A model generated the notes under the pieces. That model worked only from the letters and a program-made list of their open reading frames with translations, was not told the origin of the DNA and made no database searches. Below, piece after piece: positions 2,375 through 7,537 of a stretch of DNA of 35,784 nt. How positions within the stretch are numbered: position 1 is the stretch's first letter; the number at the start of each line of letters is the position of its first letter. Made by a program: the position numbers and the translations under genes. Source of the DNA: an uncultured Aureispira sp. (GTDB taxonomy: Bacteria > Bacteroidota > Bacteroidia > Chitinophagales > Saprospiraceae); assembly GCA_937942475.1 (NCBI GenBank), contig CALDEP010000451.1:1-35784 (forward strand), written 5' to 3'.

Positions 2375-3538
2375 ATGAAAACACCACAGCATCAATTACT
2401 AAATACACTATTATTTCTATTTCCAATATTCTTATTTGCACAACAAAAAAAACAAACTCAACGTGTAAGTGTTGAACAGACCAATCTATTGTTGGTAGAA
2501 GGAGGAACGTTTAATATGGGACAAGACGTAGAAGAGGATATTGTTCGTCTAGTAACGGTCAGTGCTTTTTATGTAGATGCCACACAAGTAACGAATAAAG
2601 AATATAGAGCATATACCGATTATTTGGATGCAAATGATCGGATGGGTACAACTAATTGGAGGGGGTCAGCGGGGATGCGACCTGATACTACTATTTGGTT
2701 GCGTTGTGTCGATACGAGTATTGCTGCTCAACTAACAGAGGATTATTTTAGATTACCAGCTTTTGATTATTATCCTGTTGTTGGTGTTTCTTGGACACAA
2801 GCGACTTATTTTGCAAAATGGCGTTCAGATCGACGCAATGAAAAATTGGCAATTGAAAGTGGCTATTGGACAGCTGACTTACAAGAAAAATATTCTTTTA
2901 CCACTAGTGAGTTCTTGGCTGGAGATTATCATAAAAAAGAAGGAAAAGAACTGCCCAAAGACCTTAACAGTATCTATTCTAATTACAGGTTATTATCAGA
3001 AGCAGAATGGGAATTGGCAGCTTGGGCTTTGATTGGCAAACGAGAATTTACAGATGAAGGGCTTGTTTCCAATCAAGTTTATAAGCCACTAGCAACGGAG
3101 GGAAAAGAAAGACATCATAAAACAGCCGTTAATAAATATAGAAAATTAGCATTGCGACATGCTAAAAAATACCCTCTACCAAGTTATTATGATACTAAAA
3201 AATACGACTTGCCAAGCGCTGTTTTTGAAGGAGAAATTAATGGTTATGGAATTTATAACTTAAATAATAATGTTGCAGAATGGGTAGAAGATTGGTATAA
3301 AGAAATCGTAAAGCCTACTGATGAAATAAATACTATAAGTGAATCGGAGGAAGAGATCAGGCTAAGACGGATAAAAAAACTATGGAAGAAACTTCCGCCT
3401 AAAGTGTTGAAAGGCGCTTCTGGAATGGCAAATAAGAAAAGCCCTGGAAATCGGTCCTCTGCAAAAGCTATGGGGCAATATGAGCGTTTGATTGGCTTTA
3501 GATGCGGAATGACTGTAATGGAGATGCCACAGTTTTAG
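2375..3538 (+). CDS. GldJ/GldK-like SUMF1 (formylglycine-generating-enzyme fold) protein
   Basis: 387 residues with a Sec-type signal (residues 1-22, cleavage near FA-QQ). SUMF1-fold landmarks are present: 'LLVEGGTFNMG' (39-49), 'FYVDATQVTNKEYRAY' (65-80), 'YYPVVGVSWTQATYFAKWR' (132-150), 'YRLLSEAEWELAAWALIG' (204-221), a late 'NNNVAEWVEDWYKEI' and a C-terminal 'IGFRCGMTV'. The 'PDTTIWLR' stretch and long insert match the gliding/T9SS proteins GldJ and GldK rather than catalytic FGE. Genuine GldJ/GldK are lipoproteins, and no lipobox Cys is seen here. The YPWNG-type segment of GldJ/K also looks replaced by a Lys-rich insert. It is likely a paralogue with a structural envelope role. It converges on the di-haem gene ending at 3573, 34 bp away. 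Confidence 0.75.
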   Translation: MKTPQHQLLNTLLFLFPIFLFAQQKKQTQRVSVEQTNLLLVEGGTFNMGQDVEEDIVRLVTVSAFYVDATQVTNKEYRAYTDYLDANDRMGTTNWRGSAGMRPDTTIWLRCVDTSIAAQLTEDYFRLPAFDYYPVVGVSWTQATYFAKWRSDRRNEKLAIESGYWTADLQEKYSFTTSEFLAGDYHKKEGKELPKDLNSIYSNYRLLSEAEWELAAWALIGKREFTDEGLVSNQVYKPLATEGKERHHKTAVNKYRKLALRHAKKYPLPSYYDTKKYDLPSAVFEGEINGYGIYNLNNNVAEWVEDWYKEIVKPTDEINTISESEEEIRLRRIKKLWKKLPPKVLKGASGMANKKSPGNRSSAKAMGQYERLIGFRCGMTVMEMPQF

Positions 3539-3572: not shown

Positions 3573-4604
3573 TTACAAATGTGGATTGCTAAAAGATGGA
3601 TTATTAAGAACAGATGGATCGGTTAGAGCTTTCAAGAAAGCAAGCAGGTCTTTTTGTTCTTTTAAACTTAGGTGAAGCGGTTTAATTAGGGGGCTTTTAT
3701 GCTTGTGCGCTTGACCTCCTTTGTTGTAATGTTGAATCACTTGTTCTAAGCTTTGAATACTGCCATCGTGCATATAAGGAGCGCTAAGGCTGCTATTTCT
3801 CAAGGAAGGTACTTTGAAAAGCGCTCGATCTTCTTCTTTGTACGTGAGCCTAATTCGCCCTGAATCGGCATAGTTGGTATACAAACCATTGTTTTTAAAG
3901 GAAAAGTCAGAGAAATGAGGAGGCGTATGACAAGAGGAACAATTGGTTTGAGCACTCATAAACAACTTTAAACCTCTTTGGGCACTAGGAGAAAGCGCCT
4001 TTTTTTCTTCGTAATAGGTGTATAAATCATAAGGCGAACGGGCAGAAACTAAGCTTCGTTCAAAAGCAGCAAGGGCACGTGTAATGACATAAGGATCAGG
4101 CGTTCTTTCGTAAGCCGCTAGACTCATTGCCTTGTAAAGACTGTCCTTTGCAACCCGTCGCCCTGCCAAGACAATATTAAAGTCCAACTCATGTGCTTCT
4201 TGTATGGGAACTAGAATTTGCATTTCTAAAGTAGGTACGCCACCAGCTCTTGTAAAATAAGGCGCATAGCCAACATTTAATAAAGAGGGCGCATTTTGTG
4301 TGCCTTTGCGTTGCGCTACTCCTGGACTAACAGCTAAACTGTCTGCAAAAGCGAATTGTTGTTTGTGACAACTTGCACAAGAAACGCTGCTATCTTTAGA
4401 TAAAATAGGGTCGTAAAACAACATTCTACCCAACTCAACTCGAACGGCTGTTGCTTGATTCTGTTCGGGATGGCTTATGGTCGGAAAGTCGCTAGGTAGG
4501 GTATAATTATTGGCTGTAGATTGGAAAAGTAGCGTGGATTTACAAGCAATCATGCCAGAAAAAAGAATAAAAATCCACAAAAATAGTATGATTGCTTTTA
4601 GCAT
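3573..4604 (-). CDS. Di-haem cytochrome c peroxidase / MauG-family lipoprotein (second paralogue)
   Basis: 343 residues. The N-terminal hydrophobic segment ends in a lipobox-like MIAC (Cys21), so it is probably a membrane-anchored lipoprotein facing the periplasm. Two c-type haem sites are visible: CASCH at 76-80 and CSSCH at 222-226. The conserved tail 'FKVPSLRNSSLSAPYMHDG' carries Tyr277 and Met278 as candidate distal ligands, followed by 'LEQVIQHYNKGG'. The family reduces peroxide (CcpA) or oxidises protein side chains (MauG, MbnH). Where the neighbouring paralogue has FWDGRA, this protein has FTRAGG, so the inter-haem region differs and it may be specialised. It is the last gene of the minus-strand run; a 15-bp hairpin sits just upstream of its start. 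Confidence 0.88.
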   Translation of the reverse strand: MLKAIILFLWIFILFSGMIACKSTLLFQSTANNYTLPSDFPTISHPEQNQATAVRVELGRMLFYDPILSKDSSVSCASCHKQQFAFADSLAVSPGVAQRKGTQNAPSLLNVGYAPYFTRAGGVPTLEMQILVPIQEAHELDFNIVLAGRRVAKDSLYKAMSLAAYERTPDPYVITRALAAFERSLVSARSPYDLYTYYEEKKALSPSAQRGLKLFMSAQTNCSSCHTPPHFSDFSFKNNGLYTNYADSGRIRLTYKEEDRALFKVPSLRNSSLSAPYMHDGSIQSLEQVIQHYNKGGQAHKHKSPLIKPLHLSLKEQKDLLAFLKALTDPSVLNNPSFSNPHL

Positions 4605-4651: not shown

Positions 4652-4690
4652 ATCAATAATTAATTACTGAAGTTACGCAAACAATTTTCT

Positions 4691-4764
4691 AATTCTTAAT
4701 GCTTAATTTTTAATGTTAAATGCTTTCTAGCACAACAAACATTAAAAATTTAGAATTTAGAATT
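4691..4764. repeat. Imperfect 27-bp inverted repeat in the MauG intergenic region
   Basis: Arms 4691-4717 and 4738-4764 pair with only a few mismatches around a 20-nt spacer. Both arms are built from ATTTTTAATGTT / AATTCT-type AT-rich sequence. It sits in the 237-bp gap between the two di-haem genes. It may be a second structural element in the 3' region of the upstream gene, or a degenerate palindromic repeat. Confidence 0.5.
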
Positions 4765-4841
4765 AAACATTAAAACAGTCCTTAAATAAGTAACGATGAG
4801 TTTAATACTGAACGAAAAAACTCTTGCGTAACATGAGTTAA

Positions 4842-5927
4842 TTAGAAAGGAGAACTATAGGCTTCGTTTGTTGCCATGTCTTCATCTGTAAGTGTTTTTA
4901 GAAATGCAATCAAGTCTTGAACATCTTGACTAGAAAGCAATAAACCACCATTATGATAAGGATACAACAAGGCAGGATCCATAGTCGGTGAATTGACTAA
5001 ACCTGTATTATAATGCATGATAACCTCTTCTAAAGTAGTGAAGCGTCCATCGTGCATATAAGGAGCCGTCAACTCAATATTTCTAAGCGAAGGCACTTTG
5101 AATTTAGCCTTGTCAGCGCTATTGAGAGTTGCCTTTTCTCTACCATCATCCGTGAAAATGGAATCTAAACCATTGTTCATATAATCGTCATTCTCAAAGT
5201 TTTTACCAGAATGACAATGGGCACAATCTGCGCCCGAAATAGAAGGGAAAGAAGGATTATATTCATTAAAAAACAACTCTTTTCCTCGCTGTTCGGCACT
5301 ACTTAAAGTGGCTTCTCCTCGTAGATGTTGATCGTATTTGCTATTCACAGAGACAATAGAGAACATAAATTGCTCTAAGGCTAAGGAAATTCGCTCTGAT
5401 GTAATATTATCATCGCCAAAGGCTTTGAAAAACTGATCTAGATACATTTGATCTGCTTGAAGTTTTGCAACAACATCTGGCAAGGTTTCTTGCATTTCTA
5501 AAGCATCTTGTATTGGTAACAAGGCTTGGTCTCTTAATAATGGCGCTCGTCCATCCCAGAAAAAACCATTGGTATTCCAAGCTAAATTAAACACAGACAT
5601 TGCTTGTCGATGCCCTCTCAAATCGTTTACTCCTTTGGAGAAAGTAGCCGAGTCTGAAAAGCCATATTCTTGCAAATGGCAAGACGAACAACTAATAGAA
5701 GCATCTAAGGAAAGCTTATTTTCATGAAACAACATTCGCCCCAAATGAACCCCATCAACAGTTAATGGATTATCAATAGGCAAATTCGGTGGTGTTAAAT
5801 CTCCTGCATTTAAGTTATAAGCAACAGGATTATAAACAACTGGTTCTTCTTTTATACTACAACCATATCCTAGTAAGATAATAAAACAGAAAATACTAAT
5901 TGGTAGCAGTTTGAATTTACTATTCAT
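4842..5927 (-). CDS. MbnH/MauG-like di-haem peroxidase lipoprotein
   Basis: 361 residues. A lipobox-like LLGYGC (Cys23) suggests a periplasm-facing lipoprotein. Haem-binding motifs are CSSCH (80-84) and CAHCH (235-239). It also has 'FFWDGRAPLLRDQALLPI' (122-139), with the Trp often found between the haems in this family, and 'FKVPSLRNIELTAPYMHDG' (276-294). Length and layout fit MauG/CcpA enzymes. Its start codon overlaps the stop of the MbnP-family gene by 8 bp (5920-5927), so the two are translationally coupled. In methanotroph methanobactin operons the pair MbnP-MbnH works together: the di-haem enzyme oxidises a Trp of MbnP to kynurenine, creating a copper site. The same partnership is inferred here from the neighbourhood. 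A stand-alone peroxidase role is the alternative. Confidence 0.9.
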   Translation of the reverse strand: MNSKFKLLPISIFCFIILLGYGCSIKEEPVVYNPVAYNLNAGDLTPPNLPIDNPLTVDGVHLGRMLFHENKLSLDASISCSSCHLQEYGFSDSATFSKGVNDLRGHRQAMSVFNLAWNTNGFFWDGRAPLLRDQALLPIQDALEMQETLPDVVAKLQADQMYLDQFFKAFGDDNITSERISLALEQFMFSIVSVNSKYDQHLRGEATLSSAEQRGKELFFNEYNPSFPSISGADCAHCHSGKNFENDDYMNNGLDSIFTDDGREKATLNSADKAKFKVPSLRNIELTAPYMHDGRFTTLEEVIMHYNTGLVNSPTMDPALLYPYHNGGLLLSSQDVQDLIAFLKTLTDEDMATNEAYSSPF

Positions 5928-6876
5928 TGGTTACCGATATTTTTTGTGTAGCAATCGTTTTACCATCCTTTTTGATGTTCAAAATATACCAACCCGAATC
6001 CATGAAACGAATACTTTGATCGTCAGGAGAGTAGTTCATATTTTGACAGGCCTTTCCTGTAAGGTCATAGACCTCAACGCTAGTTTCAAAAGCTTGATCT
6101 ACTTCAATTTGTAAAGCTTGACCAACACGAACAGGATTAGGATATACCGCAATATTGATGTTTTCTAATTTAGTAACAGGAACAGACATAGAACCATTTG
6201 AAAAGACCAAGGCATTAAAGTTATTAAGTACCGTTCTAGCAGCGCCAGTTTCGCCATGACTAATGACACCTGCAGTAACATCAATCGCACTCAATGCTTT
6301 TGCATAATCGGCATCAATAACAACTTCCAAATCAGAATTAACCGCATTGCCTGTTGTTACAATTGTTTTGGTTTTATAATTGTTATCACCCAAACAGTGC
6401 ATTTGAAATACGTCAGACATAGAAACGCCTGAAACGCCTTCAATTGCAACAAAACGATATCCTGCTGTCCATCCCCAGTGCATAGAAGGGGCTTGAGGAG
6501 CCAAAGGGTGATTGGCTGCATAGAGTGTTGGATCTAAATGATTTTCAGCATTTCCAACTCCAATAGCAAACGAAATACTATCTAAAGTAGTAACAGCGAA
6601 GTTCCCCAAAAGCTCATTAGTGACGGTATTGGCATCTACTAAAATAAATTTATTGCTAACAGGGGTTTGAGTGCCATCATGGTGTAAGGTAATGTTGCTG
6701 ATGTAATATTGCAAGCGTGTGATTTGAAAATCACTACCCACATCATTTGGAGTGCTTTGATTAAAGGCAAAAGAAGAGGTTCCTAGAATATGATTTAGTT
6801 TGAAGTAAACATCTTTTTGAGCATAAGAAGTTTGAACTGCCAAAGCTAGACAGAAAAATAGAATGAATGTTTTCAT
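5920..6876 (-). CDS. MbnP-family copper-site-type protein with T9SS sorting tail
   Basis: 318 residues from the ATG at 6876, chosen because a classic signal (KTFILFFCLALAVQTSYAQ) follows directly; an upstream TTG in frame would add an unlikely 12-residue extension. The mature N-terminal domain carries MbnP-family hallmarks: 'FQITRLQYYISNITL' (50-64), 'NHLDPTLYAANHPLAPQAPS' (112-131) and the signature MHWGW (132-136), then 'GYRFVAIEG'. His133 and Trp134/Trp136 are candidates for a metal site and for oxidation by the adjacent di-haem enzyme. Residues about 240-318 are a T9SS type A sorting domain ('VYPNPVRVGQALQI', 'VYDLTGKA', 'SGWYILNIK'), so the protein is exported or anchored on the surface, unlike periplasmic MbnP of methanotrophs. 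Copper binding is inferred, not visible. Confidence 0.85.
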   Translation of the reverse strand: MKTFILFFCLALAVQTSYAQKDVYFKLNHILGTSSFAFNQSTPNDVGSDFQITRLQYYISNITLHHDGTQTPVSNKFILVDANTVTNELLGNFAVTTLDSISFAIGVGNAENHLDPTLYAANHPLAPQAPSMHWGWTAGYRFVAIEGVSGVSMSDVFQMHCLGDNNYKTKTIVTTGNAVNSDLEVVIDADYAKALSAIDVTAGVISHGETGAARTVLNNFNALVFSNGSMSVPVTKLENINIAVYPNPVRVGQALQIEVDQAFETSVEVYDLTGKACQNMNYSPDDQSIRFMDSGWYILNIKKDGKTIATQKISVTNE

Positions 6877-7030: not shown

Positions 7031-7537
7031 CTAACACAAAAAAGATTCATACAAAATGTACAAAGGCACATCGGGCGGAGGGAAAAAAGAAAGTGCAGCA
7101 TACCTTACATTTTGAGGCGTAAAGGCATAGTAGGTGCTTACAAAATTAACAATAGAGGACTTTGGAATCAGGTAATATTCAAAAGAAATATCAACATTAA
7201 GTGGCTCTAGTGTCGTTTCTGTATCAGATTGATTGTATGATTTTTTATCCAAACAACAATCTTTCTTTTTTAAAGATGTTTTTTCGCCTTCTTGTTTACT
7301 AAAACAACTCTTGTAACTAAGATTTGTTTTATTAGCGTTGGAACAGCAAGACCTTGTTCTTGCAAGAACCTTAGCAGCACACTTAGTTTTTGTTTTTTTA
7401 CAACAAGGTTTGGTGGTATCAACAAAAAAAGAAATGGTTTTAAGTTCATCCTGACAATAGTGGCTATAGCTAGCTATTCCTACTGTAGAGAGTAGGATGG
7501 TCCAAATATTGAGAATATGGATAAACTGTGAAAACAT
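7031..7537 (-). CDS. HYC_CC_PP-family Cys-rich envelope protein
   Basis: 168 residues. It shows the three marks that give the family its name: a hydrophobic N-terminus ending in 'SHYCQDE' (HYC), CC pairs ('KPCCKK', 'RSCCSN', 'KDCCLDK'), and a C-terminal 'FFPPPDVPLY' (PP). There are about ten Cys, mostly in a Lys-rich middle segment, which suggests metal or disulphide chemistry in the envelope. The family has no assigned reaction; in Bacteroidota it is often found near metal-handling genes (recollection). Here it sits directly upstream, same strand, of the MbnP-family gene and two di-haem enzymes, so a copper or haem-redox role is inferred. It is the first gene of the group. Confidence 0.75.
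   Translation of the reverse strand: MFSQFIHILNIWTILLSTVGIASYSHYCQDELKTISFFVDTTKPCCKKTKTKCAAKVLARTRSCCSNANKTNLSYKSCFSKQEGEKTSLKKKDCCLDKKSYNQSDTETTLEPLNVDISFEYYLIPKSSIVNFVSTYYAFTPQNVRYAALSFFPPPDVPLYILYESFLC

Follow-up and report, generated by a model that had tools for sequence, protein, structure and literature searches.

The stretch of DNA analysed here (the window: 35,784 nucleotides of contig CALDEP010000451.1, from assembly GCA_937942475.1 of an uncultured Aureispira sp.) carries on its reverse strand a set of four genes, which in the order of transcription lie at 7031-7537, 5920-6876, 4842-5927 and 3573-4604. The head of the set encodes a protein of the HYC_CC_PP family (NF047658, 55 bits against a cut-off of 28), and is followed by P, a 318-residue MbnP-domain protein (ATG at 6876) with a type A C-terminal sorting domain of the type IX secretion system (T9SS). 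The two remaining genes encode H1 (361 residues, ATG at 5927), a di-haem enzyme of the MbnH/MauG superfamily, and H2, a second MbnH-like di-haem enzyme, which by its separate clade belongs to a distinct lineage; both are predicted lipoproteins (Cys23 and Cys21, respectively), with K-E-E after the Cys in H1. The open reading frames (ORFs) of P and H1 have 8 bp in common (5920-5927), as stated in a first-pass annotation of this DNA, which had coupled the MbnP-like protein to a single MauG/MbnH partner; the first enzyme is confirmed, but the second, at 3573-4604, had been missed. The same annotation described the locus as lacking methanobactin genes, and the 88.5% complete host assembly indeed yields no match to the MbnB-type family PF05114, MbnA and MbnC not having been searched for.

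Residues 21-201 of P match the Pfam MbnP model PF20243 (106.2 bits, cut-off 27), and its tail matches both PF18962 (31.8 bits, cut-off 27) and TIGR04183 (40.2 bits, cut-off 23; residues 244-314, positions 5935-6147), which bears out the MbnP-like assignment and the T9SS sorting domain proposed earlier. Relatives of P were collected by searching 84,980 species genomes with a sequence pattern; of the 376 PSMHWGW stretches detected, 355 were relatives, and the best 80 of these were kept. With the window included, 80 of the 81 sources yielded an ORF, L197 being the exception, and the ORFs number 82, a few of them starting at a contig edge. The tail pattern is present in 81 of the 82 P ORFs, and the exception, in L181, passes TIGR04183; both the MbnP and the tail models were matched at E 0.001 by all 49 members scanned (the window and, of the remaining 81 PSMHWGW ORFs, 48), beyond what chance would give. 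A probable Sec signal peptide, read from the sequence, spans residues 1-19 (6820-6876), and the Gln20 that follows is kept in 81/82.

The segment M132-H133-W134-G135-W136 is present in P, as previously reported, and the codons of its WxW site (W134-G135-W136) lie at 6469-6477. Since a search of the PDB with P as a single sequence retrieved its T9SS tail only, and no MbnP, a profile was employed instead; in the profile alignment, Trp134 coincides with the first Trp of the WNW motif of the solved MbnP, 7l6g, and the structural model of P displays the MbnP fold and matches 7l6g, the two being 16% identical across the structural alignment. In MbnP, we take the modified residue to be the first Trp of WxW, and papers on MbnP/MbnH in PNAS (2021) and JBC (2019) reportedly describe the formation of kynurenine in MbnP; Trp134 is thus the predicted kynurenine site of P. 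Structural misplacement of this residue, which would have counted against the earlier reading, was not seen at the level of the profile alignment, in which Trp134 pairs with the Trp of 7l6g, and of the overall fold, which matches. A candidate copper ligand is His160 (6397-6399), which aligns with the His of the MVHVG segment of 7l6g; His29, His160 and His207, none of which belongs to the search pattern, are kept in 81, 81 and 82 of the 82 tailed P proteins, respectively. Both Trp residues are present in 82/82, but these do belong to the search pattern.

Two di-haem enzymes of two lineages

H1 matches the Pfam model CCP_MauG (PF03150, 177.1 bits), and the best PDB match of both H1 (6e1c_A) and H2 is 6e1c, an entry labelled di-heme enzyme which we take to be MbnH of Methylosinus trichosporium OB3b. 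In alignments of H1 (n=65) and H2 (n=68), two CxxCH motifs are common to both enzymes (in H1, residues 80-84 and 235-239, positions 5676-5690 and 5211-5225), a Glu is found in all rows, and Tyr occupies the position of the Met ligand of the bacterial peroxidase bCcP in H1 (Tyr306, 5010-5012, by alignment to 1nml) and in H2, apart from about 1% of the sequences. MauG has Tyr in place of Met at its second haem, and the Tyr seen here is presumably the MauG ligand. The idea that H2 is a dead enzyme was not kept, both haem motifs, the Glu and the Tyr being conserved. What sets the two enzymes apart is the column of the bridging Trp, which is Trp in 65/65 H1 (Trp124, 5556-5558), and in H2 is Arg in 64, Phe in two and Lys in two of the 68 (Arg119 in the window, 4248-4250). 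In addition, the spacing Trp-10-Gln-10-Glu is found in 64/65 H1, the remaining one having Leu for Gln, and equals that of Trp98/Gln108/Glu118 of a gonococcal peroxidase (PMC10094543).

In an enzyme tree (151 sequences, with a single partial peroxidase as the root), H2 and H1 fall into separate sets together with enzymes of other loci, of 37 tips (support 0.91) and 45 tips (support 0.82), respectively; with ten sequences added, the H2 group holds 38 tips (0.95) and the H1 group 38 tips (0.79). The solved MbnH belongs to neither group and branches on the H1 side of the root. As judged from this tree, H1 and H2 are two enzymes of two lineages within one module. The proposal that an H1-type and an H2-type enzyme are paired at all two-enzyme MbnP loci did not hold, the pairing being present in 10/16 untailed two-enzyme loci and lacking in six (L080, L087, L266, L276, L277 and L281), and it is therefore a feature of the tailed module and of some relatives only. 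At four of these loci, from the host's family (L266, L276, L277 and L281), neither enzyme belongs to the H2 lineage or to the H1 group.

Alternatively, H1 and H2 could be conventional peroxidases with a protective role at the surface or in the periplasm, P binding copper or another ligand unmodified. H1 carries the bCcP segment FWDGRA with the bridging Trp, and neither enzyme reaches the curated MbnH cut-off of TIGR04039 (H1, 222 bits; H2, which scores above it, 272; cut-off 362.85), which was passed in none of 18 genomes from the same family as the host. However, the Tyr at the Met-ligand position in H1 and nearly all H2, the match of both enzymes to 6e1c ahead of any other PDB entry, and the co-occurrence of an enzyme gene with the first Trp of MbnP (see below) speak against such a role, which we regard as improbable; the reading of H1 as a plain bCcP was set lower on account of the Tyr and of this co-occurrence.

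Conservation of the module and of the Trp-enzyme association

Adjacency of tailed MbnP and enzyme genes, proposed in the first-pass annotation as a feature to survey in Bacteroidota, is conserved there, being found wherever the downstream sequence extends for 2.5 kb or more (64 sources): 24 have the order P-H1-H2, 28 P-H2-H1, eight H1 only and four H2 only, so that both enzymes accompany P at 52/64 loci, and the tally is the same when overlapping ORFs are allowed. The cultured Edaphocola and Phaeocystidibacter are among the carriers of the module (L201, L209 and L196). Among 55 loci with both enzymes, a single change of order is needed on the P tree and three on each of the H1 and H2 trees, while shuffled orders require a mean of 18 changes and at least 13. 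Correlations between P, H1 and H2 distances (0.45-0.67) have no species-tree control and were not used as evidence. On a wider scale, one or more MbnP-domain matches occur in 129 of 149 genomes sampled from the host's order. T9SS-tailed MbnPs and two-enzyme modules were the subject of none of the papers listed, in a search that covered the subscription literature thinly and whose negative outcome thus carries little weight.

The association between the first Trp and an enzyme gene was examined in a same-family set of 18 genomes plus the host, whose 51 MbnP matches were reduced to 49 by dropping two fragments of one gene; the set omits G068:C4, a match below the cut-off. An enzyme gene lies within 350 bp downstream of 29/37 MbnPs that have the first Trp and of 0/12 that lack it (p 1.4e-6), five of these 12 sharing a cluster with a Trp-bearing copy. 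Order-wide, among the higher-scoring matches listed and with three edge rows dropped, the corresponding counts are 86/111 (87/111 in a recount) and 0/6 (p 2.4e-4). Both p-values are too good, since related genomes are not independent. The host genome alone has seven MbnP paralogues (G000 contigs C373, C87, C451, C444, C410, C424 and C381), and those on C444, C424 and C381, the last of which is close to a contig end, have neither the first Trp nor an adjacent MbnH gene. In the tandem MbnPs of L267, L271, L273, L280 and L283, the Trp is missing from the upstream copy and present in the downstream one, beside the enzyme; T9SS-tailed MbnPs with WSW and no MbnH-like gene in the flanks examined occur in L116, L117, L119, L127 and L131.

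It is the first Trp, rather than the WxW motif, that tracks the enzyme, given that 17 of the 29 enzyme-coupled MbnPs lack WxW (12 have it; in eight the second Trp is at +3, and nine have none within three residues). This distribution bears on the possibility that the enzymes act on Trp134 and Trp136 to generate something other than a kynurenine copper site, such as a Trp-derived quinone or a cross-link, P being a redox protein. Such a product would suit the invariance of both Trp residues in the tailed P proteins, albeit inside the search pattern, the bCcP-type spacing and axial Tyr of H1, and the presence of two enzymes, which suggests more than one oxidation. The lack of a nearby second Trp in nine of the 29 coupled relatives from the host's family and the clear match to the MbnP fold argue the other way, and we regard this alternative as improbable.

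Likely copper setting, predicted export and proposed function

We favour, with somewhat better than even confidence, the interpretation that this gene set represents a variant of the MbnP/MbnH pair with two enzymes and display on the cell surface, in what is likely a copper setting; the conserved set would probably build an unusual copper site on an extracellular protein by means of two haem enzymes, and not the one of methanotrophs. P would leave the cytoplasm by Sec and cross the outer membrane by the T9SS, and a di-haem enzyme, most likely H1, would oxidise Trp134 to kynurenine with peroxide. Cu(I) could then be bound by Kyn134 and His160, together with one or more of His29, His133 and His207, while H2, which retains its two haem motifs as well as the catalytic Glu and axial Tyr, with Arg for the bridging Trp, may perform a second job on P or support the first. 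The earlier proposal is supported in those parts that sequence can address, Trp-to-kynurenine conversion and copper binding being predicted steps.

The likeness to MbnP/MbnH of M. trichosporium OB3b (7l6g, 6e1c) lies in the MbnP fold, the aligned first Trp of WxW and the adjacent di-haem enzyme; in contrast to that pair, the module described here has a T9SS tail, two enzymes of two lineages that are predicted lipoproteins, no MbnB-type gene found, and scores below the cut-offs of the curated models. Surface-associated copper proteins of methanotrophs, MopE/SACCP and CorA/CorB, are likewise encoded beside a di-haem peroxidase and bind copper through kynurenine and two His (PMC3912023), an arrangement like the one predicted for the present module. 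PMC3621798 describes MbnP as not markedly similar in sequence to MopE and CorA, and neither is among the 50 fold matches listed for P, which does not exclude a relation. H1 resembles bCcP in its two CxxCH motifs, bridging Trp and Gln/Glu spacing (PMC10094543), and the enzymes differ from it in having Tyr rather than Met at the second haem and MbnP as a partner, and H2 also in its Arg in place of the bridging Trp.

A number of observations weigh against the favoured interpretation. P lies below the equivalog cut-off of NCBIfam TIGR04052 (42.2 bits against 140), as do all ten relatives scanned, and the TIGR04039 scores and incomplete H1/H2 pairing given above point the same way. In the solved MbnH, the bridging column is occupied by Ala, with Trp one residue earlier, which makes the bridging Trp of H1 a feature of bCcP rather than of MbnH. 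Trp-bearing MbnPs without an adjacent enzyme number 24/111 among the order-wide matches listed and 8/37 in the same-family set. The module sample is biased towards close relatives, which are not independent samples, and has WxW inside its search pattern. Finally, confirmed copper exporters lie near only 6/80 sources, L229 included.

With regard to the copper setting, which we regard as likely, the copper-ATPase model TIGR01511 is passed by five scanned ATPases (L157, L160, L183, L216 and L221) and the CusA/CzcA model TIGR00914 by two RND pumps (L183 and L229), while a cluster of HMA-domain proteins, whose one scanned member is an HMA protein, occurs in 10 loci; such loci make up the smaller part of the 80 sources. 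Of 69 sources with at least 900 bp upstream, 30 have a HYC_CC_PP homologue in the same orientation no more than 700 bp upstream. Both CC and PP are present in 46/50 homologues, 50-61 residues apart (54-57 in 33/46), and the four without PP include one owing to unread bases; the distance from HYC to CC varies from 29 to 68, and mean column identity is 21% among 30 aligned members. In the homologues (L156-L235, and the window), PP is mostly 17-19 residues from the C-terminus. The window protein has no Pfam match at E 0.001, DUF2946 (the CruR family) included. CruR is described as a copper-sensing leader with similarly fixed spacing, at the head of copper operons in which MbnPH-like genes are included (PMC9426467). 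HYC_CC_PP shares with it the character of a small exported Cys protein with a near-C-terminal Pro-Pro at a near-fixed distance from the Cys motif, but conserves HYC and CC, not CXXC, and PP without RAPP. By analogy, a CruR-like copper-sensing leader that may tune expression of the set by copper is a lead, and one that the near-constant Cys-to-Pro-Pro spacing renders directly testable.

The location of the components is addressed by the host translocon and by lipoprotein signals. SprA, the only T9SS component searched for, is present in the host (2417 bits). The aligned lipobox column holds a Cys in 64/65 H1. Of the five residues at +2 to +6, two or more are acidic in 51/64 H1, 27/63 H2 and 17/80 other lipoproteins of the loci examined, a strictly defined control set; strict K[DE][DE] occurs in 27/64 H1, with CSIKEE in the window. 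This acidic stretch resembles the lipoprotein export signal (LES) K-(D/E)2 (PMC6222051), whose part in surface targeting is also described in PMC11885536. H1 is thus probably a surface lipoprotein as well, by its signal, and since the host also has SprA, P and H1 may both be on the cell surface; the location of H2 is less clear.

Given the export-like signal of H1, maturation of P could take place on the cell exterior, or it could precede export. The attachment of c-type haem takes place in the periplasm, and a variant of the favoured interpretation, in which maturation is completed there before T9SS export and the acidic signal of H1 has no sorting role, falls in our estimate a little short of even chances; the H2 of the window has no acidic signal (CKSTLLFQ) and LES rules vary between species (PMC6222051), but the strong enrichment of the signature in H1 over other lipoproteins runs counter to this variant. 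The fullest version of the favoured interpretation, in which P is finished in place by surface H1, H2, with Arg at the hole-hopping position, adds a distinct oxidation, and a CruR-like HYC_CC_PP switches the whole set, is unlikely. Were the favoured interpretation correct, kynurenine copper sites would be part of surface biology in many Bacteroidota and not a methanotroph speciality, and the module, whose two enzymes are unlike at the bridging residue, would provide a natural test of the role of the bridging Trp in MauG-type chemistry.

Neighbouring features

The 237 bp between H1 and H2 contain an interspersed repeat, an AT-rich inverted-repeat element at 4690-4838, of which the host assembly holds at least 39 more strong copies (84-92% identical; 40 candidates scored out of 346). 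In Aureispira sp. CCB-QB1, the closest relative found (P 74% identical), this gap is approximately 60 bp. Further along, a protein with an FGE-sulfatase domain is encoded at 2375-3538, with sub-threshold similarity to GldJ/GldK, and its gene is adjoined by that of a T9SS-tailed, lipase-like protein at 525-2210.
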